DNA from: Scilla litardierei
Taxonomy: Eukaryota; Streptophyta; Magnoliopsida; Asparagales; Asparagaceae
Reading direction: 5' to 3'
NCBI GenBank assembly: GCA_030789695.1
Contig: CM061139.1
Span: 105,002,837-105,066,836, forward strand
DNA: 64,000 nt
Every line of letters starts with the position of its first letter. Positions within the stretch are counted from its first letter, which is position 1. Made by a program: the position numbers and the translations under genes. Shown here in pieces: positions 16,357-58,810 of the stretch. The notes beneath the pieces were generated by a model. The model made no database searches and was not told the DNA's origin. It saw nothing but the letters and a program-made list of their open reading frames with translations.

Positions 16357-16389
16357 CATAAGCCGGCGGCTGGTCAAACCCTAGGTTTA

Positions 16390-16818
16390 CGACAGCGATT
16401 AGTCGGTCAAGGTAGGTTGGCTGACCGACTAGTTTAAGAACTAGTCGGTCGGTCGTTCTACTGTGACCGACTAAGAGCAAGCAGCGAAAGTAGGGAAAAT
16501 TCTGGGTAATGAATTAGTCGGTCTGTGAAGGCCCATCGACCGACTAGTTTGCAACCTAGTCGGTCGGAGGGTGTTCATTGACCGACTAACGATAAACAGT
16601 AGTATAGGCGAAATTTACTGACTGAAACTAGTCGGTCTGAGAGCAAGTTCTGACCGACTAGTTTCACATCTAGTCGGTCGGTGATTGTTCTTAGACCGAC
16701 TAAAAGTAAACAGTAACTCCTGTACAATTGATTCAATGAACTAGTCGATCTGAGAAGAGTTCCTGACCGACTAAATCTCAATCTAGTCGGTCGATACCCC
16801 TTCTTGAACCAACTAACG
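16390..16818 (-). repeat. Array of eight 32-nt inverted-repeat units, first G LTR
   Basis: Each unit is TAGTCGGTC, 14 variable bases, GACCGACTA. I counted eight, all with exactly 14 bases between the arms; units 7 and 8 have one or two arm changes. Units come in pairs separated by spacers. The right arm contains ACCGAC, which fits the plant DRE/CRT core RCCGAC. Confidence 0.9.
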
Positions 16819-17087
16819 TGCACGAAAAGTGCCGAATTGAAGCGCGAAGCTTCGGGAAGATTTCTGTAGCTCCTAAGATCACTCTAACTCTAAAATATGA
16901 GCGATTTGAAGTTCTTCATGAGTGACTTACTCCAAGATCAACGATTCTAAGGAAGAAGCTAGAAAATCACAACGAAACAAACGAAAGCGAAAGCTACGGA
17001 GACGAAAACCACACATAAGGAGAAAATCCTCCAAAACATATATATATAATATATATAATCCAAATACATGAAAAACCAGTCGTTACA

Positions 17088-18830
17088 TCCTCCCCAACTT
17101 AGAATGAAGTCCGTCCTCGGACTTTCTAACATATCTAGTCGCTCTAGTAACTACCCCAATCATATCACATTCAATCAGGTATAGTCATTACAAGTGCTTA
17201 TATTCGCACTAGGTAATCAAACATTAACACTACTAGCATGTATCATCCGCGCACATCATACTCTTAAACCTATCATAACCATTCATACTCATACATGTAT
17301 CTCAATCATACATATACATCCCCTATATAGCTACTACTTACCTAGCACAAACAATAGTTCAGCTACTCACTTATAGATAATATTAGTCTCATACATGCAA
17401 TTACAACCATCGCTCTACGCATAGATAGCTACCTATGCATCAAGCAAACATGGGCATATTACTCCCTAATATTTCCTAGTTACATCCAAGGTCAACATAT
17501 CACTACAAGTAACCACACCACTCAATATTCAATCATGTTATTATACCTAAGATACATCTATCGTTACTATAATTTCACAATTCTTAGTTACTCATATGCA
17601 TGCAAATATTTCACTATAACTTCAAATCACATACGGCCCTATAATTATACCCACGACATGCCACACATATTATAGTCACCAAAACTTATAACTAAGCACA
17701 TACTTACTCGTGCATGGTGCACACCCACACACGCTAATATTCCATTCCTATATACCAATCACACCACTGTATACTTAGCACATCCACACACCTGGTTAGC
17801 TAGCACACATACGTTCACACAGGCAAGTCCTTAGTAAATAACTATACCACAAGACCAACACATATATAACTATATACTGGTATAGCGACCCACAATCATG
17901 TGCGTAACACGACCAGGCACAAACACTCCTACCCCTATACATGTATCAAACATCGCTATATGCAAACTACAGACATACATAGCAATACTCTTAGAGTATA
18001 CCCACTCAAGTTTGAGTGAGACCCAAAACATATATCTATGTACGTAACACGGTATATATACTTATACCAATACCACACTCTAATACATTTACATTTACCA
18101 ACATAACCACATACATACTAAAATATCAATCACTATATTTAGTCAGGTCACACTCACATAATTAAATCACTTTACATACCATAGTAATAGTACAGACCTC
18201 AGCACACGTATAACTATAATACCCTTCCTAAAACATGCATTCACCGTATAGTCACGCACATGTACCTCATATATTCACACCATATCCTACTACTTATGAT
18301 TAGTATACCAATACATCTACACATACATAGTTACGGTATGCAATAATCGTGTATACCTCATGGTATACACGCATACGACATCCCGTAAAAGCAAGCAATA
18401 CCAATCGAACTTATAATCATATTACCATATGTATATTACCTACAACTCATGCAGCAATTCATAACTACTTACGTCTACGCACAATACGTATCTACGTACG
18501 AGCACATACTCACACGTACAAGCACACAGGTCATATAATAGGCCTACTCGCTTAACTATACGTACACCTATTATTATTGCTCACATCAACACATAGCTTT
18601 ACCAACATATTATTTCAATCATTAAAAGCATCTCCGACTACATACGTCTCATTAAATAATCCAACACTGATTCATAACATCATGAAAAACTCTGAGTAGG
18701 TATATATCACATAATAGGCAAACATTTTTTTATACTACAGGGGAGTACACTCATTCAAGCCCACATACACAACTTAGGTACAAGCACCACGACAACATCA
18801 CAAGGTCCAAGGCCTACTTAACAAATTAGG
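17088..18830 (-). other. Element G 3' internal region, guanine-poor
   Basis: A polypurine tract borders the LTR. The rest is strongly G-poor on plus, with many CATA, CACA and TATA words and no ORF of interest. It is probably the untranslated region between pol and the 3' LTR. Confidence 0.6.
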
Positions 18831-20490
18831 GTTGACACAGACATAGACGGGCACAAAAGCCTAAACAATAGAGGAAGACCTAAGTCGAAAGCGTGACGAG
18901 GGAAGGATCAATAAGCACGCGTTCAGATAGGACGAATACAAGGAGACAGCCTGGTTAGACAGCGACCCACTTGTGAAAGTTTAGGTAGAGGAAAGGGAGG
19001 TGTAGCGATACTTTTATAGGATACGGAAATAAAATAGTGTAAGTAACATAAGCTAAAATACGGGGAAATTGAAACTGCCGTACTTCAAATGTTGGAGTCC
19101 TCATCTGTATAAAAATATTTGGAGATCGATAAAACAAGTTGTTCGAAACGAGTTTAAGTGAAATATACATAGTAAGAGAAAATGGTGTATTGGCTTATCG
19201 AAAGCTATTTTAAAAAGTAAATCATTCACACGGATATTAAGGACGTAGTTTTAGAAAGCATTATACGGCGGTGATTTACTAATGTTGGCAAAAGTTTTGA
19301 AATGAAATTAAATTAATTAAAGAATCTTAAACTCGTGTTAAATACTTTCAAAGTCTTTAAGCCAGGAAAAACTTAAATAATCAATATTGAAACTACTTTT
19401 AGAGTAACCAGGTTTTGCCAAAAAGAAATCGTTTTACACAAAGCTCTTAACATACGAGCTAATGAGCCTAGTACGGATATATATATAAAAATAATTGAAA
19501 TTCCAATTTAGTTTAGACATTATTCTAAAAGCATGTATGGTGAACGGGAAAACTTAGTAGTAGGTTCATCAAAATTCGTAATAAGCTTTAAAACCAAATT
19601 ATGGAAGGTCCAAATCAGAAAAGGGTTTCGAAATAGTAATTCCATAATAATCTGAAATAGGGGAAACGATGAGCACAACTTGGCTTGTTGAAAGCTGAAA
19701 TCATATGTGACTTAAAAAGTATATTAAAGGAAACGCGATGAGTCAATTGTATGGCATAAATAAGAAAGGGAAAATTATAAATCGAATTGGGCAAAATAAA
19801 GGTACGGTTCAGAATAAAATTTATATAAGAAGGGACACGGTGTTTTCATGGGTAAGGAAGGTATAGGCTGGCAAAATACAATGGGTTAGTATTCCAAATT
19901 TCGACAAAAGTTTTAGAGATCTTTAAGTCAACGAAGGAGCATGAAGTATAAATATATAAATATTAAAATTTCGAACGAATTTAAACTTAGGAAAAAGGAA
20001 GTCGAAAAGATACTTTCAGAAAATTCAAGATTTGCAACGGAGAGGTTCGAAAATATTATACGGCAGTAGCTTAATATAATATTTCGGAAAAATTTCGAAA
20101 TTCAAAGAATGAAATCCGATCAACTATAGTGTGAAAATTTAGGCCCATACTAAATGCTTCCAAGTTTTAAAACTGAAGAGAAATTCCAAATAAATAACAT
20201 TTAAAATACTTTTTAGAGGGACCCGGATTTGCCAAACAATTGATTTATACAAGATCTTAAAGTACGAGTACAATGAACCGAGGACTGATATAAAAAATAA
20301 TTGAAGTTCTATTTACCTTGGAAGATATTCTAAAGTAATCAAAATTGTAGTAAAGTTTTAAAACCAAAATACGAGAAATATTGGTTAGCAAAAGCTACGA
20401 GATTAAAAATTTCAACCAATAGACTTCAAAAGCTACGAAAGGATTTTAACTCGATCGAATAGGGAGGAATTAAATATTTAAGAAGGGGGT
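18831..20490 (-). other. Element G internal non-coding filler with diverged ~0.8-kb duplication
   Basis: No coding domain is recognised. Two diverged copies, about 19245-19560 and 20045-20345, align in order: TTATACGGC(A/G)G, AAATTTCG/AAGTTTTG, TACTAAATGC/TTAAATACTT, GATTTGCCAAA/GTTTTGCCAAA and GATATA..AAAATAATTGAA. The period is about 0.8 kb. It stands where pol should be. Confidence 0.5.
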
Positions 20491-20499
20491 AGTCATCAA

Positions 20500-20575
20500 G
20501 AATTGCTTCTATATGAAGCTCTGGGATATAATGCACATTGATGCACCAGAGTCAAGAGGACTCGTGCCAGAAATG
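20500..20575 (-). pseudogene. Element G protease scrap
   Basis: The minus strand reads ISGTSPLDSGASMCIISQSF before a stop. DSGAS is the aspartic-protease active-site block of gypsy chromoviruses, followed by the usual IIS. A few residues before the Asp are missing, and nothing after is recognisable. Confidence 0.7.
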
Positions 20576-20661
20576 TGCAAACCCAAATCACACCTAACAA
20601 CCAGCCTAGCAATCAAACCCTATTCTAGCAAACATAACATATTCAACCAACCAAACATATT

Positions 20662-21231
20662 CTAACAAACAAGACTGTCTAAGGGAAGAAGGCAACTAGA
20701 CTGAGGGTTACCTGCAATAACCTCATCCACAGGCTCAGCCTCAACTACAGTCATCAGGGAAGCCTGCCTCCTCAGTGGAAACGCCTGCCGAAAAGCCTGC
20801 TTCTGTGGAACAAGGGCTGCCCCACGTCTAACAGCTACGGGTGCTTTTCGTAGTTGAGCTCCGACTAGCGCTTTCCCCAGATGCTTAGCTCTCGGACAGT
20901 CCTTTAAGGTATGCGCTACGGCGCCACAAATCAAGCACTGGCCCAGCTTCCGCCTGCACTGTTCCTTCTTATGACCAATATTGCCACAATGATGGCACAC
21001 CTTCCGACTCGGCCCAGCTTCCGGTGCTTGCTGCTACGGAACTCTATCTGACGCCTTCCGCAGTTGATTTGCATGCCGACAATCCTTTGCCGAATGAGTA
21101 GCACCACCACAAACCAAACACTGACCTAGAAAGCTTCTGCACGACTCCTTGATGTGCCCGGTCTTACCGCAGAAATAGCAAGCCTTCAGAGTAGATCCAC
21201 CACCAGCTCGGATCTGACGTCTTCTAGCCAT
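20662..21231 (-). pseudogene. Element G gag C-terminal part with four zinc knuckles
   Basis: Two frames separated by one stop (21231-21034 and 21000-20662) carry four CCHC knuckles: CYFCGKTGHIKESC, CLVCGGATHSAKDC, CHHCGNIGHKKEQC and CLICGAVAHTLKDC. A basic linker and EAEPVDEVIAGNP follow, matching the gag-protease junction of chromoviruses. The knuckles bind genomic RNA during packaging. The usual gag capsid region of several hundred residues is missing, and the frame begins MARRRQIRAGG only ~150 bp from the LTR. Four knuckles is more than the one to two usually seen. Confidence 0.8.
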
Positions 21232-21378
21232 CTAGCGCCATAGAAACGGACCAAAATTAGACTCAAAGCTTAATGACTCGGATGTCGAACTTAGTTCATT
21301 GGACATTCTAATATTATTATCGTTATTCCGATATTCGCAGTTACAGAAGAGAGACCTGCATGGTCCACCAACAAAACC
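21232..21378 (-). other. Element G leader between 5' LTR and gag remnant
   Basis: This lies between the LTR and the gag remnant. No methionine-tRNA-type primer site is visible beside the LTR, which supports loss or rearrangement here. Confidence 0.5.
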
Positions 21379-23849
21379 TGTCACGCCCCGCTTCCCTAAA
21401 ATAGAGGCGAGACGTGAGAAGGTCCGCACAGACGTGGAGCCGTGAAGCCTCACGCCTGATAAGCGTCAATAAATCATATGCAGGTCCCTGTAAGTGCAAA
21501 CGGAACAACAATAATAACACAAGGAGAAACGGAAATAAAATCCCAAATCTCAGTAATTATCCAACATTAAAATTAAGTTCAGCATCCAGAAAAGCCACCA
21601 GGCTAAAGGAAAGAGTCTAAAGGCCCAGAACAAGGCCAAAAAAGGATAGACATAAAACAGAGTATTGGTGCTATGCACCGACAATAAAAACAATCTAAAA
21701 CGAAGAACACAAGCAGCCTCTACGACTGATCGCCCGTGTCCTCGTACACCTCAACGAACGCATGCTCTGACTAAGCGTCAGCACACAGCATGTCCACCGC
21801 AGCACTCTCAGGCTCGTGATCTAACATGTGTCACCCAAAAGAGTAAAGGGGCACATGTCAGCAAGTCTAAAAGACTTGGGCAAGGAAACTGAAAGGATGG
21901 TAAACTTGCAACCTAGCAGTTATAGTATGCATGACATGGCAAGTAAGGTATGGGAGTGACAAGAAAAAGGGAAGTACAAGTAGCAGGTATGGCATGGATG
22001 ACAAGTTTTACAAGTATAAACACGGACAAGTACAAGTCAAGTATTTCACATCAAGTAAACAAATTGTGCACAGAGATTCCGCATGTTGGCTAGAGTGGCT
22101 GATCGGGCCAACTCCTAAGCTCAAGTGACCGTTTATCTCTACCCCCTCCCACGTGTGTCGAGCCAGGGCATTACCCCGAACACGGAATGCTCGCTTCTGG
22201 AACACGAGCCAGGAAATGTGTTTAACACGTATATCGAGCCAGGGCATTACCCCGAACACGGAATGCTCGCTTCTGGAACATGAGCCAGGAAGTGTATTTA
22301 ACAAGCATGACGTAGGGTTATGCCCGCATAATGGGTGCCTAGCCGGTAACACGGAAACACGGACTTGTACAAGGATTTGTAGCATGTGCTACGATGCAAC
22401 ATTCAATGCATGGATGACATGGCATGCAGTAAGGCATGCAGGTAAGGAATTTAAACATGGCAGTTTAGTATGCGTGCAACAAGTTAAAAAGGGGTTGGAT
22501 CTAGCTTCGTCGTCAAGCTAGATCAGTTGAGGTGACGGATCTAGTTTCATTGTCAAACTAGATCAAATAGGCGTCTAGGCAGCTATCATTTCACGGTCTA
22601 GTCTCTTTTACGCTACAACAAGCAAATGGCCTAAGGCATGGCCTAAAACCCTAAGTGGCAAGTTTAACTTGCCTAGCACCGAGGATGACGATCAACGAGG
22701 CACGTCTCACAATCGCTAATCTACGTGGAAAGTCGCTATTACGGAGACACAATCATCAAAACAACATCCATTTATATTAGGGTTTCAAAATACCAAATGG
22801 GTTAGGAGAATATTAAAGGGGCGAGTTATTACCGAATCGTTAGCGGAAGAATGATGCCGAGCAAGCACGTCAACGGAAGAAACGATCCGGGGATCCATGG
22901 TTCAGATCTGGAAATGGGGAGAAAATCTGGAGAAATGAGATTTTGGGGGTTTTGGGGGGTTTTCCGGCGACCTAGAGGAGGTGGCCGGCCATAATGGCAA
23001 GAGGGAAGGGCTCTTGATGAAGGAGGAAGGCTAGGGGAAGATGGATGATGGTTTGGGGAAGAAGGAGGCTCAGGAGAAATGAATGAAGAAAGAAAAACGT
23101 TTGGGGGGTTTAAATAGGCATAAGCCGACGGCTGGGCAAACCCTAGGTTTACGACAGCGATTAGTCGGTCAAGGTAGGTTGATTGACCGACTAGTTTAAG
23201 AACTAGTCAGTCGGTCGTTCTACTGTGACCGACTAAGAGCAAGCAGCGAAAGTAAGGAAAATTCTGGGTAATGAATTAGTCGGTCTGTGAAGGCCCGTCG
23301 ACCGACTAGTTTGCAACCTAGTCGGTCGGAGAGTGTTCATTGACCGACTAACGATAAACAGTAGCTTAGGCGAAATTTACTGACTGAAACTAGTCGGTCT
23401 GAGAGCAAGTTCTGACCAACTAGTTTCACATCTAGTCGGTCGGTGATTGTTCTTAGACCGACTAAAAGTAAACAGTAACTCCTGTACAATTGATTCAATG
23501 AACAAGTCGGTCTGAGAAGAGTTCCTGACCGACTAAATCTCAATCTAGTCGGTCGGTACCCCTTCTTGAACCAACTAACGTGCACGAAAAGTGCCGAATT
23601 GAAGCGCGAAGCTTCGGCAAGATTTTTATAGCTCATAAGATCACTCTAACTCTAAAATATGAGCGATTTGAAGTTTGTCATGAGTGACTTACTCCAAGAT
23701 CAACAATTCTAAGGAAGAAGCTAGAAAATCACAACGAAACGAACGAAAGCGAAAGCTACGGAGACGAAAACCACACATAAGGAGAAAATCCTCCAAAACA
23801 TATATATATAATATAGATAATCCAAATACATAAAAAATCAGTTGTTACA
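21379..23849 (-). repeat. Element G LTR, second copy
   Basis: It matches 14615-17087 with few differences. An eight-unit inverted-box array lies at 23160-23580. Confidence 0.92.
23160..23580 (-). repeat. Array of eight 32-nt inverted-repeat units, second G LTR
   Basis: Same layout as 16390-16818. Small arm changes, such as TAGTCAGTC in unit 2, distinguish it from the first copy. Confidence 0.9.
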
Positions 23850-24073
23850 TCCTCCCCAACTTAGAATGAAGTCTGTCCTCGGACTTTCTAACATCTCTAG
23901 TCGCTCTAGTAACTACCCCAATCATATCACATTCAATCAGGTATAGTCATTACAAGTGCTTATATTCGCACTAGGTAATCAAACATTAACACTACTAGCA
24001 TGTATCATCCGCGCACATCATACTCTTATACCTATCATAGCCATTCATACTCATACATGTATCTCAATCATAC
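23850..24073 (-). other. Element G internal stub (polypurine side)
   Basis: It matches 17088-17310 and stops abruptly at B gag. It shows that internal sequence once continued beyond the second LTR. Confidence 0.8.
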
Positions 24074-24268
24074 AGATACGATTAAACTCTGATTTATCAA
24101 GAGAGCATATAAGCGCATTCATAGCTTTGACATTTAAAGAATAAAGCTTTTTATTGGAGGCATCCCATTTATCTTTAGGCTTAACCATTATGGTGTCTTC
24201 AATTTTAATAGTGGGTGGATTATAACCATTTTCAACAATATCCCACACATCATAATCTACATACACTA
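24074..24268 (-). pseudogene. Element B-type gag fragment, duplicated
   Basis: About 195 bp encode VYVDYDVWDIVENG...DKSEFNRI on the minus strand. They match 42078-42270 with only a few changes. It is bounded by the G stub on one side and the J LTR on the other. Because the same gag segment also lies on the far side of J, this is a second copy and not the continuation of it. Confidence 0.85.
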
Positions 24269-25980
24269 TGCACCCGGAACCTACACCTAGATTCCACCTA
24301 GCGGTGTCACGGTCGCTAGGCGTAGTATGGCCCCTAGGTGTCAATTCTGGGCTCTATCCGCAAGCGGACGATGTCAAATTATAGTATAGAAGATGTCGGA
24401 TCCCACAGGGACGGTGACAGTGTATTTGGGGTCTCAGCTTATTTTTATTTATCGGAGTGAGATAGCTGTCGGGTTGAACGGATTGGTTGTGGTATTGTTG
24501 TTGATTCAATAATAAAAGAAACTAGGGTATTAGGGATCACCGCTAAGACCGTTGGGGATCGATGTTGGAATAGGATCCTTACGTTGCATTAGGATTAGGG
24601 GATTAATCTCTCAATTTGTACCACTCTCGTGGGTTAGAATTTCGAGGTATTTCAATGGCTCTCGTTGGCACAATGGCGGTAGCAGTCAACGTAGCGATAT
24701 AGTTCGTCGGTGAATCCCCTCAAGGAACGAGCCGGGCATGGTCACCATCCTTGATTGGATCCACCAATTTCATATTCGAATCCCAAGGATACCAATTAAG
24801 CTCATCAATTCCACAGACCGTGGGCATGATCTCAGTGCGGGTTATCCTAGGGATCCAGTATAATCGACTGAAATACTCCCCTTCATTCCTAATCCAACCT
24901 AGAGATCCAGATCTACATCTTCCCCCTAAAGTCTTTGGGCTAACTCATCAATCCTAGAAGAGACTACTCACACATGGCGATATTGACAAATAAAGCGGGT
25001 TTTATCAAGGAGAGCATTATGGCAAATCAATCGAATAAGAAAACGAATAACTTATACAACGAAGGTAGTGAAAAACAGTCATAAATAATAATCCAAAAGA
25101 AAGCCCAAGATTCCAGAACGCAAGAATAGTAGATCTCCAAGAAATAATTCAATAATCTCCAAAAACTAGGTTTAGATATAATAAAACTATTTCTAATCTC
25201 CTCTGCTCTCAAAACGTAATCCAAAATTACAAAATGAATGAACTCCCTCAAACGTGCAACCCAGATCCACTCTTCACTCCCAAGCGGGCCTCAGACGGCC
25301 GCGAGGAATTTCCGAAAATGGCCTTCAGTGTCGTTGACCGAGTCAGTGACTCGGTCGAGCAGGAGCTTGCTCAGTCGGCTTCTTGGTCAAGCAGCCGTCT
25401 TGCTCGGTCGAGCATGTCAGTAAGTCGGTCTTCTCCAAAAATGTTTCTTTGTATGCTCGGCCCGAGTCAGCTCAGCTCGGTCGAGCACCCAACTGACTCG
25501 GTGGCTGTGAGATCTGCTCGGCTCGAGTAAGAGGCGGATTGAACTTCGGGAATGAGAGCTGCTCGACCGAGAACCTTAATTACTCGGTCCGAGCGGCATG
25601 TGTATCTGCTCCCCTTCTTCGTCTAGCATCTGCTCGACCGAGCAGCTGCTCTGCTCGGTCGAGTCGTCTGGGAAAATATTGGCTGAAGCTCCTGATAGCT
25701 TCTCCTCTCTTCTTGCACTCTCCTCGACTCCTCCCATGGCTTCCAAAACTCGGCGAACTCCTGTAGGGCTTCGCCAACAGGCTCACTGGTTGTCAGATGT
25801 GTCCATATCCAAAGTGGGTCCCGAATCGCTCCAAAATCCCTAAAAATTCATTAAACACTACGAAACTCGAATATAACGTTAGAATTGCAATATCGTTGGA
25901 AAATACGGGATTTGGGTGTGAAAATGTCATGAAATGCAATGACATGATGCTATGAAAAGATGTAAAATATGGACACATCA
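24269..25980 (-). repeat. Element J 3' LTR
   Basis: It matches 40170-41882 over its whole length. The outer end lacks three bases present in the other copy (TGCACCC against TGACGCACCC). An inverted-box array lies near 25330-25675. Confidence 0.9.
25330..25675 (-). repeat. Array of CTCGGTCGAG/CTCGACCGAG boxes in J 3' LTR
   Basis: Near-palindromic ten-base boxes recur about a dozen times, often in pairs with starts 20-21 bp apart. One box of a pair is often CTCGACCGAG and the other CTCGGTCGAG, which are complementary. Confidence 0.85.
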
Positions 25981-26836
25981 AAATCCCTCAAGCTTACCTC
26001 TTACTCGTCCTTGAGGAAGACGAATACTAGGTACGCCGGGATAAAAACAAAAGGAAATAAAAATAAAAATAAAAGCAAGTAAAGATGGATGAAGGGTGCT
26101 AAGATTGTTCAATCAGATCTCAAGCCTCAGCAGTATAACACGATGCTTCGAATGGTAAAAACACATGCTATGGGTATTTTCAAGTTCTACTAATCATATG
26201 TCTAGCATGCAATAGAGACAAAAATAGGGATCTTCTAAAATAATGCCATCAACTCATATCAATCTCATGCAATCTATAGAGTCTAGTATAAAAAAGAGTT
26301 GGCAATACAATTTTCAATCAATAGATACAAGTGGAGCATGTAAAAGTCACACCAGCATGCAATAAAGAATGGAAACAAGTCATGCTATTCAAATATTCAT
26401 TTTGAATAGTGAAAAATCTCCAAAACTAAAGTATTTTGTAAAGTTCAAGCATTATCTAATCTCCCCGCTATGCACCGTCTCCACTCTAATGGTGTACTCA
26501 CTCATATGATCACTTGGTTCACCCCCATATGCTTAGCTCGAGACGTCACATCTAGGAATATGATATGAAAGTTTTTGTCTTTTCCCAAGTAATTGTGATA
26601 GCTTCTAATAAAGAAATATGGAACAATTTTACTTCTTTCTTTTCTTTATTTTTCTTTTCTTCCACATTTTTTTTCTTTTTTTCTTTTTCCTTTTATTTAG
26701 AAGCTATATTTTTTCGTTTGGGATTTTTGGGAAGTAGGATGCGGTAAGGGTAGCTGTGGGGATGAAACCAACTGATATGTAGAGAATCATAAAGATATGT
26801 GGAGGAGGAAAATAATGGATCACTCGGTTCACTCAG
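25981..26836 (-). other. Element J polypurine tract and 3' non-coding region (part 1)
   Basis: The minus strand reads GAGGACGAG-type/AAGCTTGAGGGATTT sequence before the LTR, typical of Athila/Tat elements (AAGCTTGGGGG). The rest is AT-rich, with T-rich stretches at 26625-26715. It stops at the K insertion. Confidence 0.75.
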
Positions 26837-27906: not shown

Positions 27907-27919
27907 CCTTAAATAGCCT
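27907..27919 (-). promoter_or_regulatory. TATA-like box of element K LTR
   Basis: On the minus strand this reads GGCTATTTAAGGG. It lies about 100 bp downstream of the CTCGGCCGAG array in the sense of the element. The equivalent in the other LTR is near 33792-33804. Confidence 0.55.
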
Positions 27920-28014
27920 CCCAAAACCCTAGCAAAAATCCCCCAAAACCCCTCTGAAACCCGCGCCCGAAACACAGTCTACGTACAACTTAGATTCTGG
28001 GCAAGTTACGACTC

Positions 28015-38529: not shown

Positions 38530-38553
38530 AACGGGGTCAGTTGCCCATCCTCC

Positions 38554-40005
38554 TCATGTGGTAACAGAGACCACAACGTTGGCTTGAGCCCTTGGATTTG
38601 GCTCTGGTTGCGAAGGCAACCTCCCTTGGTTCTTCAGCAGCTGGGACATCTGTCCCCTTAGTTCATCGAGCGAAGTATTAATATTCTTGAACTGAGCGGA
38701 GGTGTCCTGGTTGAACCCAACCTGACCACTCATAAATGTTTCCAATGTGGCCTCCAGATTGGATCAAGGTGGAGATGGTGCATAGCCCTGCTGGGGTGGG
38801 CGATTGAACTGGTAGCCTGGTGGTCGATATGGCCCGGCTGGCCTAACCCCACTCTGCTGCTGATTCTGTGGATGCCCTTGTTATTGCTGAGGTGGGGTGG
38901 CGGTCTCTGAAATTGTGGAGGTTGCCCCCCTCCACTTGGGTTTCCGTAAGAAAACACCGGATGCTTTCTAGCAGCCGGGTGTTGCCATTGGTTACGTCCC
39001 TCTCCTTGGACATATTGCACGGACTCCGATGATTCAGCACCATTATAATGCACCTCATTGGGAACATAATTATGCTCCCTATATTCATCTAAAGGATGGT
39101 AAGCAGGGGTGCCGGTGGTCATTGGGATGGAATCCAAACATTTTTCAATTCTGGCCACCTGTTTGCACAAGGTCTCGATGTGAGAATCAAGTTGGCTGGC
39201 AGCTTTGACCTCGGGGGTCCTGGTCATAATGGTTTGTTCTTCGGTCCACTGCTGATTATTTGCCACCATATGCTCAAGCAGGTCTATGGCTTCTTCAGGA
39301 GATTTATCCAGCGATGCACATTGAGCGGTAGCATCAATTATCATTTTGGTGCTGGACTGCAGCCTATTATAGAAACTCTGAACCAAGTCCCAGAGCTGGA
39401 TCCCGTGATGAGGGCATTGATGTTGGAGGTCCTTGAATCTCTCCCAGGTCTCGTAAAGATATTCTTGTTGGAGTTGCTTGAAATTTGAGATAGCCCCCGG
39501 ATCCGCACCGTCTTGGAGGGTGGATAGAACTTGTCCACAAAAGCGAGCGCCAACTTCTCCCATGTGGTAAAATGGTTGGGTGGATGGGCCCGTAGCCAGT
39601 ACGATGCTTTATCCCTCAAGGTGAATGGGAAAAGATGTAGCTTGATGGCGTCATCACTCACATCTTTCGCCTTGAAAGTGTCACACTTTGCCAGGAAAGT
39701 GTCGATGTGGTGATTGGGGTTCTCGTGAGGATGACCATGAAGGGATCCTGCTGCATTAAATTTATAAGCCACGTCTTCAGCTCGATGCTAGCTGTCGCCA
39801 GTTGCGGTCTCAGGATAGAAGAATTATTTCCAAAGGTGTGATTTATGTGGTCCCTGATGGACCCGGTGCGAGGAGGGGCAGCAATATTGTTTGCCATCTG
39901 GCCAGAGGGAGATTGATTTATACTTGAGGCCCTCAGAGCCTTTGTCGTTTTCTCGATCTCGGGGTCGAATAATAACTCTTGACTAAATGCCCCAAAGCGA
40001 GTGTT
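38554..40005 (-). pseudogene. Element J gag (Athila/Tat type), frameshifted
   Basis: Three minus-strand frames follow each other: MNTRFGAFSQELLFD (from 40005), MAYKFNAAGSLHGHPHENPN (39772) with IKLHLFPFTLRDKASYWL, then FKQLQQEYLYETWERFKDL and FYNRLQSSTKMIIDA (39563-38730), and a short tail to 38554. These are the capsid blocks of Athila gag, including PFTLRDKA and SPEEAIDLLEHM. Frameshifts occur near 39770 and 39480, and a stop or shift near 38740. Gag would form the particle and carry RNA. It lies just after the primer site, as expected. Confidence 0.88.
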
Positions 40006-40147
40006 CATGCACCAAAACAACTCAGAAAAATACTGTCAGTAGCATGGTAATAATTAAAAGAATAAAAAGGGTGGAAAGATGAGAAATGATAAGAGTTGCT
40101 AGCAAACTCTTCAAAATAAAAATAAACTGAGATACACTATTGCCGTC

Positions 40148-40168
40148 TCCGGCAACGGTGCCAAAAAC
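40148..40168 (-). promoter_or_regulatory. Element J primer-binding site
   Basis: The minus strand reads TTTTTGGCACCGTTGCCGG beside the LTR. Athila/Tat elements use this site. One base differs from the commoner GGCGCC form seen in K. Confidence 0.85.
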
Positions 40169-40169
40169 T

Positions 40170-41882
40170 TGACGCACCCGGAACCTACACTTAGATTCCA
40201 CCTAGCGGTGTCACGGTCGCTAGGCGTAGTATGGCCCCTAGGTGTCAATCCCGGGCTTTATCCGTAAGCAGACAGTGTTAAATTATAGTATAAAAGATGT
40301 CGGATCCCATAGGGACGGTGACAGTGTATTTGGGGTCTCAGCTTATTTTTATTTCTCGGAGTGAGATAGCTGTCAGGTTGAAAGGATTGGTTGTGGTATT
40401 GTTGTTGATTCAATAATAAAAGGAACTAGGGTATTAGGGATCACCGCTAAGACCGTCGAGGATCGATGTTGGAATAGGATCCTTACGTTGCATAAGGATT
40501 AGGTGATTAATCTCTCAATTCGTACCACTCTCGTGGGTTAGAATTTCGAGGTATTTCGGTGGCTCTCGTTGGCGCAATGGCGGTAGCCGTCAACGTAGCG
40601 ATATAGTTCGTCGGTGAATCCCCTCAAGGCACGAGCCGGGCATGGTCACGAGCTTTGATTGGATCCACCGATTTCCCTATTCGAATCCCAAGGTTACCCA
40701 TTAAGCTCATCAATTCCACAGACCGTGGGCATGATCTCAGTGCGGGTTATCCTAAGGATCCGATAGGATCGACCGAAATACTCCCCTGCATTCCTATTCC
40801 AACCTAAAGATCCAGATCTATAGCTTCTCCCTAAAGTCTTTGGGATAACTCATCAACCTTAGAAGAGACTACTCACACATGGCGATATTGACAAATAAAA
40901 ATGCGGTTTTTATCAAGGAGAGCATTATGGCAAATCAATCGAATAAGAAAACAAATAACTTACACAACGAAGGCAGTGAAGAACAGTCGTAAATAATAAT
41001 CCAAAAAAGCCCAAGATTCCAGAACGCACGAATAGTATATCTCCAAGAAATAATTCAATAATCTCCAAAAACTAGGTTTAGTCTAACAAAACTATTTCTA
41101 ATCTCCTCTGCTCTCAAAACGTAATCCAAAATTACAAAATGAACGAACTCCCTCAAACGCGCAACCCAGATCCACTCTTCACTCCCAAGCGTGCATCAGA
41201 CAGCCGCGAGGAATTTCCTAAAATAGCCTTCAGTGTCGTCGACCAAGTCAGTGACTCGGTCGAGCAGGAGCTTGCTCAGTCATCCGATCGGTCGAGCATC
41301 TGTCTTGCTCGGTCGAGCACGTCAGTAAGTCGGTCTTCTCCAAAAATGTTGCTCTGTATGCTCGGCCCGAGTCAGCTCTGATCGGTCGAGCAGCCAACTG
41401 ACTCGGTGGCTATGAGGTCTGCTCGGCTCGAGCAGGAGGCTGATTGAACTTCGAGAATGAGAGCTGATCGACCGAGCACCTTAAGTGCTCGGTCCGAGCG
41501 GCATGCATATCTGCTCCCCTTCTTCGTCTAGCATCTGCTCGATCGAGCAGCTGCTCTGCTCGGTCAAGTCATCTGGGAAAATATTGGCTGAAGCTCCTGA
41601 TAACTTCTCCTCTCTTCTTGCACTCTCCTCCACTCCTCCCATGGCTCCCAAAACTCGGCGAACTCCAGTAGGGCTTCGCCAACGGGCTCACTGGTATGTC
41701 AGATGTGTCCATATCCAAAATGGGTCCTGAGCTCCAAAATCTCTAAAAATTCATAAAACACTACGAAACTCAAATATAACGTTAGAATTGCAATATCGTA
41801 GGAAAATACGGGATTTGGGTCAAAAATGGCATGAAATGCAATGACATGATGCTATGAAAAGATGTAAAATATGGACACATCA
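40170..41882 (-). repeat. Element J 5' LTR
   Basis: It begins TGACGCACCCGG and ends GGACACATCA on plus. It matches 24269-25980. An inverted-box array lies at about 41240-41575. Confidence 0.92.
41240..41575 (-). repeat. Array of CTCGGTCGAG/CTCGACCGAG boxes in J 5' LTR
   Basis: It corresponds to 25330-25675, with scattered single-base changes in the boxes. Confidence 0.85.
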
Positions 41883-42382
41883 CTTACCGAGGGAGCTAGA
41901 CGTGTAGACAATGTCGGTGAACCTCACAAACATCGCTGAAATGGATTCTGATGGAAGCATGCAGAATCTCTCGTACTCTGTGCTCAGCAGGGCAAGTCTA
42001 GATTCCTTCACTTGTGACGTTCCCTCCTGCGTCACCTCCAGCGTATGCCATATTTCCTGTGTAGTTAAACAATGTGAGATACGATTAAACTCTGATTTAT
42101 CAAGGGAGTATATAAGCGCATTCATAGCTTTGACATTTAAAGAATAAAGCTTTTTATTGGAGGCATCCCATTTATCTTTAGGCTTAACCATTATGGTGTC
42201 TTCAATTTTAATAGTGGGTGGATTATAACCATTTTCAACAATATCCCACAAATCATAATCTACAAACACTAGATAGATTTTCATCTTAGCCTTCCAATAT
42301 GCAAAATCAACTCCATTAAATTTAGGGGGTGGGCTATGGATTGAACTTTAGCAAAAGCAGAATCAAATATATTCATGGCCAT
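41883..42382 (-). pseudogene. Element B gag N-terminal part
   Basis: From a start at 42382 (MAMNIFDSAFAKV), after a one-base frame change, the frame reads PPPKFNGVDFAYWKAKMKIY, LWDIVENGYNPP and EIWHTLEVTQEGTSQVKES, and ends at the J LTR. The YWK, WDIVENG and EIWHTLE blocks are those of copia gag (UBN2/DUF4219 type). Everything after about residue 165 is missing. A shorter copy lies at 24074-24268. Confidence 0.85.
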
Positions 42383-42411
42383 CTAAAAATCTAGACTAGA
42401 TCCTCTAAACT

Positions 42412-42424
42412 GGTTCTGATACCA
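42412..42424 (-). promoter_or_regulatory. Element B primer-binding site
   Basis: The minus strand reads TGGTATCAGAACC, matching the 3' end of plant initiator methionine tRNA except for one or two bases. It lies 2 bp from the LTR. Confidence 0.9.
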
Positions 42425-42426
42425 CT

Positions 42427-44077
42427 TGTTGGATCTAGATCGTAGCCTAGAGGGTTGTGAATAGGCTAATAAAAATATTCGTGCAACCCACAAACAATCA
42501 AATGAAGTTATAAGCACATGCAGAGTAAATAATGAGCAAACATAGATGCACAGCAGATTTACCCTGGTTCAGTCGTTCCAACGACTTACGTCCAGCCCCC
42601 AAAGCAAATACTAGTATTAATAATTTAACGGGTACAACCATAAGCTAGAGCATGACTAGAGCACCTCTCTACGTCTCTACACTCGCCAGGCTCTTAGTAC
42701 CCCACAATACACTTGTTCAACAAGATAATCCTAGTAAAAGCTTTCTATTGGCTAATCCTAACTAACCAAGTCCCTCTTGTCTAGACCAACTATACAAGAC
42801 CCTAAAATGTCACAATGGTAAAGCTTTCCCTACAAAGATCTATACAACTACACAAAATAATAGTAAAGAGTTTAGATAATCTCAGTTTGTGTAGTGACAA
42901 TCGTCTCTATCAATCTGCTCAGGTCAGATCGCATCTGAGAGGATGTCGTTACCAATGCCACGTCCTTGCCTTTGGAAGTTGCGGCCTAAGTGACTTTTGC
43001 TCCTCCTTGAAACTTGTGGCCCTTATGTGCTTTCATCCTTGTGTTACGCAATATATGGTGAATCTCCGCCTTTGTGTTGCGCAATATGTGAAATACTCTC
43101 TAATGAAACTTGCAGCCAAGGCTATAGATGGAGAGATAGGTTGCGGCATTGATGTGTGCTTGGGCTATGAAGTTGCACAAGGAAATGTGGAGGGTCTCTT
43201 GGATATGTAGCTTGCAGCCAAGGGCTTGGAGGAGTTGTGACTTACGCAAGGTGTATGCTATGTGATCTTGGAGCTTTGGCAATGGAGATGAGATGTTGTG
43301 CAAGGGTATTAATGCTATGGCAAGTATATTTCGGCCATGGAGAAGTTTGCAAAGGAGATAAGAGCTTTAACTTTGGAGATGACTTGATCCAATGGAGGAA
43401 GAGGCTTTTTAATCAATGTTGCGCAATGGGTACTCCTCCTTGCAAAGTTACGGCCACCTCTCTCTCCCTTTGATGTTGGTCGAATTCTCCTTGGTATATT
43501 TTGTTGCCCTCTCTCTCAAAATCTCTCTCATGGAATATGTGTTTTTATAGGAGATGATGGGATATGATAGAATCAATTCAAATGCCATATTTGATGGAGA
43601 TTGGAAGGAATCCTAATTTGATTAGGATTTGAATAAATCTCTTAGAATATGGAGTTTGAATATGAATGGCTATGAGATTCAATTTGTGTAGCTATAGGAT
43701 TTGAATTAGATCTCATTTAATCACCTTTGATTTGCATGAGATTCTCCATATCTCTCCATCTTTGACCAAGTCTCTAATTTGCATGACATTAGGATTTGAA
43801 TATTGCACCAATTGATTTGAATCAATTCAAATGTGGATTTGAATTGATTTGCTACTTATCATCTCATCTTTGACTTAGTCCAATTGTTGTAGCCATATTC
43901 TCCATCTTTGACTTAGTCCACTTGTAGTGTGTATAGAAATTCCTCCATCACTTTTGGCTAGTCTCTCTTTGAGTATTCACGAGAGTGCCATTCGTGAAAA
44001 CACTTAGCACACAAATTAAATATTTCACATACATTTGTTATCATCAAACACGAAGTCATCGATCGTTGTATCCAACA
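42427..44077 (-). repeat. Element B 5' LTR
   Basis: It runs TGTTGGATCTAG to TATCCAACA and matches 11608-13240. TTGCGCAA-type boxes are at about 43000-43450. Confidence 0.92.
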
Positions 44078-44082
44078 GTATC
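44078..44082. repeat. Right target-site duplication of element B (GTATC)
   Basis: It matches 11603-11607. Confidence 0.9.
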
Positions 44083-44177
44083 ATCATACAGATCTTCCAG
44101 TTGGCATAGTTTGTGTCGTCGAAGAGAGGTGGTCGAAGAGTGTTAATTCCTTCATTGTGGAAAGAAGTCGATGCCAT
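44083..44177 (-). pseudogene. Element A gag N terminus, separated by element B
   Basis: From 44177 the frame reads MASTSFHNEGINTLRPPLFD and continues to the YWK-like block (ANWKICMM). It stops at the B insertion and resumes in frame at 11607. Start choice: first ATG after the primer site, 12 bp away. Confidence 0.88.
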
Positions 44178-44188
44178 CGCTTAACCTT

Positions 44189-44200
44189 GCTCTGATACCA
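44189..44200 (-). promoter_or_regulatory. Element A primer-binding site
   Basis: The minus strand reads TGGTATCAGAGC, a perfect plant initiator methionine tRNA complement, 2 bp from the LTR. Confidence 0.95.
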
Positions 44201-44202
44201 AG

Positions 44203-44785
44203 TGTTGAATCCCGTGGATGGCAAACAACACTAGAATGGGGGTTGAATAGTGTTGTAAGAATAAAAAATTTTCGTCAACGATATTACAAGACTAACTTTC
44301 CTTCCAATGTTTCCTAAGGAACCAAGTAGAGTTATCTACGCGTGGTTCTTAATCAACACGATTATCTCCAAATAAGAGAAGACATAAAGATCAAAAGAAT
44401 AATGATAATAGAAGAGAACTCACATCAGAATAAAAATACAAACTTTGCAATAACAATTTTATTAACAAAGGATTACAAATGACATACACATAAATAATGA
44501 ACAAGTTAGTATACAATAAATAACATGAGACAATCACAGAAAATCACACAGAGAGACACGAGATTTATCCTGGTTCCCCACAACATGGGTACATCTAGTC
44601 CCCGACCGTCACAGATCGATATTTAACTATGAGTTTGGTTGAAATTCTTCTTCTCGAAGTATGCTTTGAGCTTCAATTAGCTTATTTTCACAACCTACAC
44701 ATCTTAAATAATATGATTAGTACATTCAAAACATTGGTGTGATCATCATCAAAACCACTTTGGGGTGGGACTAGATTTCCCAACA
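44203..44785 (-). repeat. Element A 5' LTR with ~1.1-kb internal deletion
   Basis: It runs TGTTGAATCCC to CCCAACA. Compared with the 3' LTR it lacks the part equivalent to about 266-1370; the junction is at about 44628/44629. The missing part contains the box pairs and the TATA-like box. Confidence 0.9.
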
Positions 44786-44885
44786 CTTTACTCTAGTAGA
44801 AGCAATATCATGAGTAAGCAAATTAACTCTAGCATCAAGATCATTGCAATCATTCAATTTAGTAAGAGAAATAAAATGCTCATTC
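44786..44885 (-). pseudogene. Scrap of an older copia gag linker
   Basis: The minus strand reads EHFISLTKLNDCNDLDARVN and onward, a coiled-coil segment found between gag zinc knuckle and protease in Sirevirus-like elements. It is squeezed between A and C and is the oldest layer visible here. Confidence 0.6.
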
Positions 44886-46643
44886 TGTTGGATACAACGT
44901 GTAGTTGGATAACGATCGATGACTTCGTGTTTGATGATAACAAACGTGTGTGAACGATTTGATGTGTGTGCTAAGTATTTTTCAGGAGTGGCACTCTCGT
45001 AAATACTCAAAGGAAGACTAAGTCAAAGTGAAGGAGAATTTACCATTCATTAGCAAAGTGGACTAGTCAATGATGGAGATAATGGCTACACATATTGGAC
45101 TGAGTCAAAGATGGGGAGATAAGGAGGGAATCAATTCAAATCCATATTTGAATTGATCCAAATCAATTGGTGCATGAATCAAATCCTTCCTACACACATG
45201 AAGACTTGGTCAAAGATGTAGAGATATGGAGAATCTCATGCAAATCAATTGCGATTAAATGAGATCAAATTCTAATCCTAAAGCCATACAAATTCAAACT
45301 TCATATCCAATGTGGCTAGAAGAGATCTTCCATAGTGATTCATTCAAATCCTATTCAATCTAGAATTCCATCCAATCTTCTTCAATTATGGGATTCTATT
45401 TGATTCTAATTGATCACATCCTCTCCTATATAAACCCATATTCAAAGGAGAGAAAAGAGAGAGGGCAACCAAGAAGAAATTTTGGCCATCGTCTCCACAA
45501 AGCTCCCTCCTTCCGCAACATCCCTAGCTTCTCAATCTCTTCATTGCGCAAGATAACTCCAAGCTCCATTGCCAAAATATACCAAGGGGTTTCTCATCTT
45601 CTCTTGCAAGCTATAGCAAGCCAAGAAACATATCCTTCTTCTCACAAAGCCAAAGCTTCATTGCCCAAAACTCCATGGCCGCAACAACCTAGTCCCAATC
45701 ATCTTCAAGGCCATAATGTATACAAGGTTTCATCATCACACATTGCGTAACTTGCATCCAAGCTTCATGCTCATCCTCCTCAAGGCCGCAACAAAGCAAG
45801 GGGAGTCGTCTTTAACATTGTGCAATCTACAAGCAAAGTTCCCACAAGCAAAGCCTTGCAAGCAAGCATCATTATGCAATCTTCATAGTTCAAGGATCTC
45901 CCCTTCATAGCAGAAAGCAAGGGACTCAACACCATCCCCTTCATCAAGGCCACAACATCATTGGATGTTCACCATCAAGGCTGCAACATCTCTTTGGGGA
46001 TTTACCGTCAAACAGCTCTCCATCCATCCCTATATTGTGCAACATCACTAAAGGATTCTTCATACATTGTGCAACAAGGGGAGTCACCAAGACTGCAAGT
46101 TTCATCCAAGGAGGGACGTGACATTGGGGACTACATCCTGTCAGTCTTGATCTGACCTGAGCTGATTGATAAGGAGGACTACGCCTACATAAACTGAGCT
46201 TTCCTAAACTCTTATTTACTTATATATGTGTATTGGTGTATAGATCTCTGTAGGGGAAACTTTACCATACTTGTGTGTTTTGGGATCTTGTCTAGTTGGG
46301 GCTAGACAAGAGGGACTTGACTAGTTGGGACCAGTCAATAGAAAGCTTATACTAGAATTAGTTTTGTTTAACACTGTGGGAGTGGGATACGGAGAGCCTG
46401 GTAATCGTAGAGGAGGTGCTCTAGGTTTTTATGATTGTACCTATAACATTATTAATCTAGTATCTGCTTTGGGAGCTGGACGTAGGTCGTGGGGACGAAC
46501 GAACCAGGGTAAATCTGTTGTGCACTCTGTGATGGCTTATTATTACTCTGCATCTGCTTATAACTGCCTGTGATTGCTCGTGTGTTTGCAAGAATTTTTA
46601 TTAGCCTATTTCCCCCCCTCTAGGGTTAGATCCAGATCTAAGA
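44886..46643 (+). repeat. Element C 5' LTR
   Basis: It begins TGTTGGATACAAC and shares ordered blocks with the reversed B LTR (CGATCGATGACTTCGTG, the TATA-like box, TTGCGCAA-type boxes). The exact right end is uncertain because the usual CCAACA has decayed. Confidence 0.8.
45426..45438 (+). promoter_or_regulatory. TATA-like box of element C LTR
   Basis: It reads CCTATATAAACCC, the counterpart of 12716-12728 in B. Confidence 0.6.
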
Positions 46644-46645
46644 AG

Positions 46646-46657
46646 TGGTAACAGAGC
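46646..46657 (+). promoter_or_regulatory. Element C primer-binding site (decayed)
   Basis: It reads TGGTAACAGAGC, one change from the methionine-tRNA form. Confidence 0.75.
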
Positions 46658-46685
46658 AGGTTAGAGGATCTTTGCTAGAATAACC

Positions 46686-48388
46686 ATGAATATCTCTGAT
46701 TTAGCATTTGTTGAAGGTCAGTCTATTACCCGACCCCTTAAGTTTAATGTAGTAGACTTTGCCTATTGGAAAGCGAGAATGAAAATTCATTTAGTGTATG
46801 TTGATTATGATGTGTGGGATATTGTTTAAAACGGATATGAAGCCCCTACTATTAAAATTGAAGACACTGAAATTGTTAAACCAAAAGATAAATGGGATGC
46901 TGCTAATAAGAAACTTTTTTCATTAAATGGCAGAGCTATGAATGCACTTATTTGCTCTTTGGATAAAGCTAGATTTAATCGTATCTCACAATGTATAGCT
47001 ATGCAGAAAATATGGCATACGCTGGAGGTGACGTATGAAGTAACGTCACATGTGAAGTAGTCTAGACTTGCTTTGCTGAGCACAAAGTATTAGAGCTTCT
47101 GCATGCTCCCATCAGAATCCATCAAAGAGATGTTTTCGATGTTCACAGACATCGTCTACAAGTCTAGCTCCCATGGTAATCCATACTTTAGTCTTGAGCA
47201 GGTAAGAAAGATCTTAAGAGCGCTGCCAAGCTCGTTCTGTCCTAAAGTCATAGCCATTAAGAAGCTAAATATCTATCAAAGATGAGAGTAGAGGACTTGA
47301 TAGGTAACTTGATGTCACACGAGCTTGAGCTGTAGAGCATTGAAGAAAGAGAGAAACCAGATGTAAAAGCTCCAAAAAACACTAGCTCTTTAAGCAAGCT
47401 AAGATAAAGATGATAATGAGGAGCAAGCACTAATGGTTAGAAACTTCAAAAAATACATCAAGACCGAGCAAGGAAGAACAGGAATGGCACCAAGGTTTAA
47501 TCGCTCTAATAACTCTAATCCTGCTAGAAATTCTTCTGATCAGATTGCTACTGAAAAAGTGATATGTTTTAAATGAAGGAACAAGGACATCGTATGAAGG
47601 ATTGCCCACAAGAAACGAATAACGTCGCAGAAAAGAAAGGAAAAGCTCTAAAGTTAACGTGGGATGACGATAGAGAAGATGAGATTAAGGATACTGCTCA
47701 CACCTCCGTCTGCTTGATGGGAAAACATGATGAGGTAAAATATGGTAAAGCTGAACTTCTAAATATTTGTAAGGCAATGCAAGATGAAATTGTAGATCTA
47801 GAATCCACCTTATATGCCTATAGAAATGATAACTTTAAAATGCAACAAGAAAACTGTGACATGTATAATGAAAGTAATAATCTGAAAGAAAAACTTGTTG
47901 CATGTAATTCTACAATTGATTTGCTGAAAAAGGAAAAAGCTAACATGCCTGAAAAAGTTGAGTGTCTTTCTTGTCCCACTTTATTAAATAAAAATAGCAT
48001 GTATAAAGAAAAATTGATTAAGCTAGAAACTGAAAATAAATTGCTTATTGAAAAGATGTGCATGCTAAATAATGAGCTTAAAAGCAAAATGATTGATTTT
48101 GAAAAGAAAGAAGAGAAAAACAAGAAAGCTTTCATTAGTAAATGCACTTTGCTTGTGAATGAAAATACATTCTTGAAATCCAAAGTCATGAACCTAGAAT
48201 TGTCCATTAAGAAATGTTCTATTGGAAAACAATCTTTGGATACTATTCTTGAAAATCAACTTTATCGCAATAATAGACGTGGACTTGGATATGATTTGAA
48301 ACATGTTCAAAAGCCTAATTATAAGAGAATTCACATTGTGCCAATCAAGGTTAAAAATATTTATGCAACGTGCTTTACATGTACTAGT
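46686..48388 (+). pseudogene. Element C gag with coiled-coil linker, broken
   Basis: From 46686 the frame reads MNISDLAFVEGQSITRPLKF, then YWKARMKIHL, WDIV, a stop at about 46827, KIWHTLEVTYE, further stops near 47058 and 47088, and SLEQVRKILRALPSSF. A zinc knuckle (CFK ... QGHRMKDC) is split by a one-base deletion near 47573. The open segment 47573-48394 is a long coiled coil (NLKEKLVACNSTIDLLKKEK) ending YKRIHIVPIK just before D. It is the same gag type as B. At least five lesions make it non-functional. Confidence 0.88.
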
Positions 48389-48830
48389 TGTTGAGTATTG
48401 GACTTCCCGGATTTGGTTTTGGATGATGAACAAACATAAATATATCGTGAACTAACACTTTGTGAGCACAGTTATGGAGATCATCGCCAAATTCATATGA
48501 ACATCCCAAGCGACGTCTCAAGACTTTTTAAAGCGCGTGAACGTGTGCTTGAAGCTTCGTTGAAGCTCAAGGACCATTATTGAAGTCATGAAGATTCGAT
48601 CGAAGCTTTTAAAGACGGTTCGTCAAGTTTTATTTATAGTCTTTTAGCTTCGTATCGTAGAATGTTAAGCCTTGAGTAGGTCTTACGTTTTAATCTTCAT
48701 AACGCTCATATCTTAGAGCTAGGATCTTAGTAGAAGTCCATACGAACTTTCCCGAAGCTTCGCGCTTCGATTCGCGACTTCTTGTGCATGTTAGTTGGTT
48801 CAAGAAGAAGAACCAAACGACTAGATGGTG

Positions 48831-49325
48831 ATCTAGTCGGTCGGAAAAGCTTCTTGGACCGACTAGTTTGCCTCCTTCAATTCTAGCTCACTTACTCTTT
48901 ACAGTTAGTCAGTCAAAGAAGGTTCACCGACTGACTAGTTTGTGAACTAGTCGGTCAGTGTTTCTTCTTTGACCGACTAGTTGAGCTTCTATTGTACATG
49001 ACTAGTTACTGTTTGTCGTTAGTCGGTCTATGTACATTTGTCGACCGACTAGTTGATGAACTAGTCGGTCAACATTTGTTCTTGGACCGACTAAATCTAT
49101 TTGTGCTCAGACTTTTAATTTTATCTCTTAGTCGGTCTCAGTTGAGTCACCGACCGACTAGTAGTGAAACTAGTCGGTCAGCAACTCTTCTTTGACCGAC
49201 TAGTTCTCTTCAGTCTGAACTTCTCTTCTTGGCTGTTCTACCATTAGTCGGTTCATGCTGTTTGACCGATCGACTAGTTGATGAACTAGTTGGTCAGTCA
49301 ACCTTCTTTGACCGACTAGTTTGGT
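48831..49325 (+). repeat. Array of nine 32-nt inverted-repeat units in D LTR
   Basis: Units are TAGTCGGTC, 14 variable bases, GACCGACTA. All nine have exactly 14 bases between arms. Unit 2 has TAGTCAGTC with GACTGACTA, a change in both arms that keeps complementarity. Unit 8 has two mismatches and unit 9 one G-T type pair. Confidence 0.92.
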
Positions 49326-49384
49326 TCAGAATAGAGCCGTTGGAGCATTAAATGCCACGATTTTCACTCTCTCTTTCCTCTATC

Positions 49385-50140: not shown

Positions 50141-50151
50141 AGTACCTAGCT

Positions 50152-58809: not shown

Positions 58810-58810
58810 A

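Follow-up and report, generated by a model that had tools for sequence, protein, structure and literature searches.

Rigidly spaced arrays of inverted units lie upstream of the TATA-like box in copia and gypsy retrotransposons of Scilla litardierei

Results

We analyzed a 64,000-nucleotide stretch of the Scilla litardierei genome (GenBank assembly GCA_030789695.1, contig CM061139.1, positions 105,002,837 to 105,066,836 of the forward strand; hereafter the window). It contains two long terminal repeat (LTR) retrotransposons, G on the minus strand and D on the plus strand, that carry arrays of an inverted unit in the U3 (unique 3′) region of their LTRs (Table 1). The unit, TAGTCGGTC-N14-GACCGACTA, consists of two 9-base arms around a 14-base spacer. 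These arrays lie upstream of TATA-like boxes, keep their spacing nearly without exception across the genome, and occur in both Ty1/copia and Ty3/gypsy elements. They are probably promoter-proximal cis-regulatory modules that are read on DNA, a spaced form of the RM boxes of Sireviruses.

Table 1. Positions of the G and D elements, their arrays and associated features in the window.
Feature	Position	Strand	Basis or remark
G element 3′ LTR, about 2.7 kb	14615..17317	-	direct repeat with 21379-24079, 97.1% over 2703 bp
TATA-like box, G 3′ LTR	16347..16354	-	45 bp downstream of array
8-unit array (4 doublets), U3 of G 3′ LTR	16400..16815	-	unit scan
Zinc-knuckle (gag-like) remnants	20662..21231	-	sole coding trace found in G; three of its small open reading frames (ORFs) scanned
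G element 5′ LTR	21379..24079	-	direct repeat with 14615-17317
TATA-like box, G 5′ LTR	23109..23116	-	offset 45 bp
8-unit array, G 5′ LTR	23162..23577	-	unit scan
D 5′ LTR, about 1.74 kb	48389..50124	+	ends from repeat with 3′ LTR beyond window
Block of about 100 bp directly upstream of D array	48692..48791	+	alignable between copia and gypsy elements
10-unit array (5 doublets), U3 of D	48792..49318	+	unit scan; nine clear units 48834-49318
TATA-like box, D	49386..49393	+	67 bp downstream of array
D gag ORF, stop to stop	50116..51078	+	PF14223, copia type
Primer binding site TATCAGAGC	50130..50138	+	motif as published for Sireviruses (PMC2829016, available text)
D pol ORF: BBD, pre-integrase, integrase, SH3	62020..63609	+	domain scan

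A first-pass annotation of the window had taken 16390-16818 and 23160-23580 for the LTRs of G and 48831-49325 for that of D; repeat comparison reveals these segments to be parts of longer LTRs. Its unit counts were confirmed by direct scan (eight in the first G LTR and nine in D, each with a 14-base spacer), and the array of D begins with an additional degenerate (tenth) unit at 48792. The units of the G 3′ LTR start at 16400, 16442, 16515, 16557, 16629, 16671, 16742 and 16784. We assigned the sense strand of G from the side of the array on which the TATA-like box lies. The coding content of G itself is limited to zinc knuckles, and G is assigned to gypsy through the homology of its LTRs to the group formed by L024, L025 and L009:5535.

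D continues past the end of the window, and its 3′ side lies on stretch L009. D is a predicted envelope-type Sirevirus (Ty1/copia) because it combines four features. First, four AGGGGGAG polypurine tracts precede its 3′ LTR (L009 positions 4191, 4274, 4404 and 4476); four such tracts also precede the 3′ LTR in each of L016 and L017. Second, the short Met-tRNA primer site TATCAGAGC characteristic of Sireviruses follows its 5′ LTR. Third, gag and pol are in copia-type order, with RVT_2 after integrase (L009:47-721). Finally, a PF20167 envelope-like ORF lies between pol and the 3′ LTR (L009:1874-3541), as in L016 (L016:1947-3497). Among the elements examined, a PF20167-type extra ORF occurs in Sirevirus ones only. 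Both elements with this region covered have an internal 4-unit array upstream of the ORF (L009:1371-1557 and L016:1383-1569).

Two other elements are inserted in D. A gypsy element interrupts its 3′ LTR (L009:5035-7880, corresponding to 69035-71880 on the window scale, and L010:2099-4943, corresponding to 76099-78943). About 230 bp of the D LTR is repeated at the far end of this insertion, which exceeds a target-site duplication. A copia element is nested within D on the minus strand, with RVT_2, integrase and gag between LTRs that are 98.2% identical (51395-51944 and 58810-59358). The unit scan found zero units in these nested LTRs.

We identified 481,387 exact copies of the unit in the 3.68-Gb genome by pattern count. 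Exact arms at other distances are rare, with 1,023 pairs at N0-13 and 835 at N15-40. The spacer-length count proposed in the first-pass annotation thus reveals no broad distribution, and N14 is nearly absolute (481,387 of the 483,245 exact-arm pairs with spacers of 0-40 bases). A reversed-pattern control returned no match at N14, one at N0-13 and none at N15-40 genome-wide. Among the off-length matches listed (50 per class), the spacer is 13 bases long in 37 cases and 15 bases long in 27, which is what single-base insertions or deletions would give. The same N14 pattern occurs at only two places in a prokaryote collection described as 257 Gb in size, and at one in IMG/VR; its frequency here is therefore far above chance.

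Units are paired in doublets with starts 42 bp apart (119 by the definition used; one pair at 41 bp was also seen). The back-to-back arrangement within a doublet, GACCGACTA-N10-TAGTCGGTC, has 253,184 copies genome-wide vs 254 at N11-24. A full LTR array comprises four or five doublets upstream of the TATA box. Each doublet mostly starts 108-125 bp past the start of the previous one. In 31 arrays with 119 doublets, the distance between the second unit of one doublet and the doublet that follows is usually 66-68 bp (17), 70-74 bp (70) or 82-83 bp (10).

The 14-base spacers had been thought to vary freely, a view refuted by two nearly invariant letters. In 11 arrays, all 49 doublets have G at position 4 of the first spacer, four bases in from the first outer arm, and 47/49 have C at the mirror-image position in the second unit. 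Every intact arm contains ACCGAC, which fits the core A/GCCGAC of DREB/CBF (AP2/ERF) factors; as candidate readers of the array, these factors are a lead only. A heat-shock-like GAAnnTTC motif in the spacers was considered and rejected (8 observed vs 7.0 expected among 238 spacers).

Arrays are present in 4 of 13 ten-kilobase stretches sampled without regard to the motif. Another 20 stretches were chosen because they contain one unit with a shortened spacer. By downstream homology these comprise 13 copia stretches, five gypsy stretches, one with internal arrays and one that is unplaced; L046, which was placed as copia, also had a gypsy match.

By the pattern used at first, 29 of the 30 LTR arrays are followed within 150 bp by a TATA-like box, at 44-117 bp; the count becomes 30/30 after post hoc widening of the pattern to take in L017:7471. 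Control stretches upstream of the arrays contain one in 4/30 cases (at least three of these 30 stretches are shorter than 150 bp), and letter-shuffled sequences in a mean of 4.4/30. Distances from the array end to the TATA-like box in the 30 LTR arrays cluster near 45, 55, 66 and 74 bp, in roughly ten-base steps, with about 42 bp added where the last unit seems to have been lost; these arrays represent few independent lineages.

Conservation of the array differs within and between elements. We compared six LTR pairs of single elements, excluding that of D, which is split by an insertion. Differences affect 13/1008 arm, 16/784 spacer and 13/870 linker positions; once an element has inserted, its arms are not protected from decay. 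The comparison between elements covered 12 arrays in 46 of 66 pairs, the remainder being excluded because the array lengths differed. Arms differ at 426/8185 positions (5.2%) and spacers at 2395/6370 (37.6%), with 578/2260 differences in the 10-bp gaps and 3118/7200 in the linkers. Alignment-gap columns number 361 in linkers and 14 in arm B, and there are none in spacers or 10-bp gaps. Arms and spacing are therefore held in the lineages that spread. The selection on geometry proposed in the first-pass annotation is supported by this between-element conservation and by the rigid spacing. Arms that vary like the surrounding LTR, named there as evidence to the contrary, are indeed found within LTR pairs after insertion, but between elements the arms are conserved. 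CpG-type arm changes are unequal genome-wide (18,735 at position 6 vs 10,447 at position 5).

We identified LTR arrays in three elements whose coding domains are those of Ty3/gypsy. L024 and L027 encode gag, RVT_1, RT_RNaseH and Integrase_H2C2 (and, in L024, SH3_Tf2-1), with reverse transcriptase and RNase H before integrase. L026 encodes gag (PF03732), RVP_2, H2C2 and SH3_Tf2-1, its reverse transcriptase ORFs lying outside the scan. A chromodomain at the integrase end has one match, in L024, at 21.9 bits vs a cut-off of 25.1. Together with the coding domains of D, these elements bear out the earlier claim that the array is common to gypsy and copia LTRs.

Several observations connect the arrays of the two superfamilies. 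First, the block upstream of the array aligns in part of the comparisons between copia and gypsy LTRs (E about 1e-5 to 1e-15); not counted here are the stronger matches between L009:5535 and D-type LTRs, which stem from the insertion of that element into D. Second, both superfamilies have the same odd first unit. Finally, the doublet order of copia arrays is collinear with that of one gypsy group (rank 3 of 120; rank 10 for the other group). The downstream LTR halves, comprising TATA, R (repeat) and U5 (unique 5′), gave no copia-gypsy match in the cross-superfamily comparison (L046 is an exception in another comparison). At the level of sequence, these comparisons show that the module is homologous across superfamilies and that the TATA/R/U5 half is not. 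One past exchange would most simply explain the copia and gypsy arrays. A Sirevirus-to-gypsy direction is suggested by the presence of RM boxes in many Sireviruses. The block upstream of the D array and its G counterparts also contain short inverted repeats of their own (GAAGC/GCTTC).

Alternatively, gypsy and copia elements may have converged, each gaining its arrays separately for a shared host factor. Such convergence is consistent with the unmatched downstream halves and with an array tree in which one branch (97/97) splits 15 copia from 12 gypsy arrays; this tree includes 27/30 LTR arrays, with three short copia arrays excluded and five short gypsy arrays kept. It is also consistent with the doublet order of the two gypsy groups, which are not collinear with each other (rank 42 of 120). 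Independent gain is nevertheless unlikely in view of the alignable upstream block, the shared odd first unit and the doublets that are collinear across superfamilies.

Discussion

The first-pass annotation knew the layout as no named element feature, but Sirevirus RM boxes are a known relative (PMC2829016), and the array is an extreme case of this known kind of LTR regulatory array. The available text of that study describes RM boxes as palindromic CGG-CCG repeats, in at least eight copies, mostly in the upper LTR half and upstream of TATA. Extra copies lie upstream of the ENV gene, and the boxes also occur in Sireviruses without ENV. D is alike in its 10 CGG-CCG-core units upstream of TATA and, as in L016, in a second cluster before the envelope-like ORF (on L009 in D). 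Table 3 of PMC2829016 lists the same half-sites, CGGTC/GACCG, for the Osr10, Osr8 and Vitis boxes. The halves in that table adjoin or lie a few bases apart, whereas here they are separated by 14 bp and doublets have a fixed 10-bp gap. The same text calls RM boxes Sirevirus-specific, setting them against classic Ty1/copia elements, whereas here they also occur in Ty3/gypsy LTRs (L024, L026 and L027).

A literature search that covered few subscription journals found no published gypsy case of such palindrome arrays. Maize Ty3 elements generally do not have such a peak, according to one paper found in this search. The exact arm words, one or both, occur in 243 papers, and the titles among the matches listed concern unrelated subjects. 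As far as these searches show, the 14-nucleotide half-site spacing, the doublet lattice and the presence of the same U3 module in Ty3/gypsy are new.

The position of the array, its rigidity, and its conservation between elements alongside neutral-looking decay within them are the observations that a mechanism must accommodate. We infer that a host DNA-binding protein reads the array and that the array thereby activates transcription. In this reading, each 9-base arm would serve as a half-site that is recognized in double-stranded DNA. Successive arms point in opposite directions, separated in turn by 14 and 10 bp, so that neighboring sites would lie 21 bp apart when the sixth base of TAGTCGGTC is taken as reference. 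This distance within a doublet may represent two B-DNA helical turns, with four sites per doublet. In envelope-type Sireviruses, the short second array before the envelope-like ORF is probably a promoter element of that ORF. The Ty3/gypsy lineage would have acquired its homologous module through the exchange with a Sirevirus proposed above.

Some observations weigh against a protein-read promoter module. The local unit caller takes N14 only, and spacer rigidity therefore rests on the genome-wide counts. By the pattern used, no TATA-like box was found at the four arrays not placed in LTRs. Steps between doublets are mixed and are not all whole turns, so helical phasing between doublets is not claimed. 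The remaining contrary points concern pairing in RNA. In an RNA-level element, the doublet would form a long hairpin in the 3′ U3 RNA (with a role in export, packaging or stability), and selection would act on pairing. The array as RNA indeed folds very well by prediction (z -13.5). Spacer complementarity within doublets, which an RNA stem would also produce, exceeds permutation (7.36 vs 6.56 of 14; 7.03 vs 6.11 in 32 non-redundant doublets, P 0.0003). G-U pairs are in excess in the 10-bp gap (61 vs 45 permuted) and, in raw counts, outnumber A-C in outer arms (38 vs 20) and among the mismatches of inner arms without first doublets (22 vs 3). Both-side changes at arm position 9 number 13 vs 5.7 expected. 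As a separate observation, the 22 G-U vs 3 A-C indicate that the two inner arms of a doublet do not change alike.

Any dyad array would also fold strongly, and the wobble (G-U) test is mixed. Spacer pairs fall below permutation both for G-U (111 vs 134) and for A-C (206 vs 229), and G-U and A-C pairs in both arm classes are at permutation expectation. In 238 units, both arms changed at 16 positions, all matching, but just three of these fall at positions 1-8 and the other 13 at position 9. That position is the least conserved letter, and many of its both-side changes occur in one homologous first unit. Genome-wide, single arm changes number 18,735 and 10,447, and non-compensating doubles 311 vs 203 expected by independence; any compensation test must therefore beat this 1.53-fold excess. 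Unit 2 of D had been read as changing both arms in a compensating way. Its counterpart in the D 3′ LTR (L009:5003) has both arms unmutated, so these changes are two post-insertion hits in one LTR copy, and a hairpin supported by compensation in this unit was rejected.

Nothing in a 14-nucleotide hairpin loop requires a fixed length, but N14 and N10 have hardly any exceptions, and a hairpin leaves the TATA-proximal placement unexplained. We thus consider an RNA-level element improbable. The first-pass annotation had offered a hairpin or a protein pair on DNA. Because the spacing is rigid and the supposedly compensating unit of D is unmutated in the other LTR, reading of DNA by a protein is the better supported of the two candidate mechanisms; the hairpin fits less well, with mixed evidence on pairing.

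A factor encoded by the elements themselves is a still more doubtful source of the predicted binding activity. A Sirevirus protein, such as the product of the PF20167 ORF, would bind the array in the manner of VANC proteins, with gypsy elements parasitizing it. A precedent exists in VANC21, which binds a 9-base motif arrayed in the non-coding regions of its own VANDAL element (PMC5735166, available text). Among the elements examined, the extra ORF is restricted to Sirevirus ones, where it has an array of its own, which also fits. Dense repeats of a short motif in non-coding parts of a mobile element are common to both systems; VANDAL motifs share one orientation and are bound by an element-encoded anti-silencing protein, whereas the motifs here are inverted pairs at fixed spacing. 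Against this alternative, the domain scan of the PF20167 ORF recognized no DNA-binding domain beyond PF20167, and a protein search with it found no relatives at E 0.001 among 8000 candidates scored. As noted above, published RM boxes are also described in Sireviruses without ENV. We regard with equal doubt the related proposal that the array, as a two-turn DNA lattice, is the address of such a Sirevirus-encoded regulator, and that a Ty3/gypsy lineage captured this address and thereby parasitizes the control system of another superfamily. If true, capture of a Sirevirus address would go some way toward accounting for a unit count close to half a million in a single genome.

A functionless by-product, in which tandem duplication of one palindromic unit left an array that is regular through youth, is hardly credible: tandem arrays do arise in this way and no constraint is visible between LTR copies of one element, but recent duplication cannot give spacers that differ so much more than arms between elements.

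Other arrays and LTR cis elements resemble a promoter-proximal module of this kind in part. In maize, Sirevirus palindromes are clustered in the cis-region of the LTR and are predicted to fold strongly (Bousios et al. 2016, as cited in the available text of PMC10760457), like the arrays described here; they differ in sequence (CACCGGAC-NNN-GTCCGGTG). The Rider LTR promoter region contains dehydration-responsive elements (DREs; PMC6762207), and Tnt1 has BII boxes (PMC3316501). Both are LTR cis elements, and the available parts of these reports mention no fixed inverted lattice.

A common RM-box binding factor could not be named in the available text of PMC2829016, and the later work consulted names none. 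The 481,387 exact units at one spacing are a sharply defined bait for finding such a protein. The presence of this U3 module in a Ty3/gypsy lineage as well suggests that enhancer modules can be exchanged across retrotransposon superfamilies. Unrelated elements would then share a single factor on which their activity depends.

Other features of the window and the assembly

A long interspersed nuclear element (LINE)-type reverse transcriptase with a zf-RVT domain lies at 5842-7695. The window also contains two patches of short local repeats (57746-58181 and 60499-60792), one in inverted and one in tandem arrangement. Contig C13 of the assembly measures 824.7 Mb, compared with 146-358 Mb for twelve further contigs, and is either an unusually large chromosome or the result of a join.

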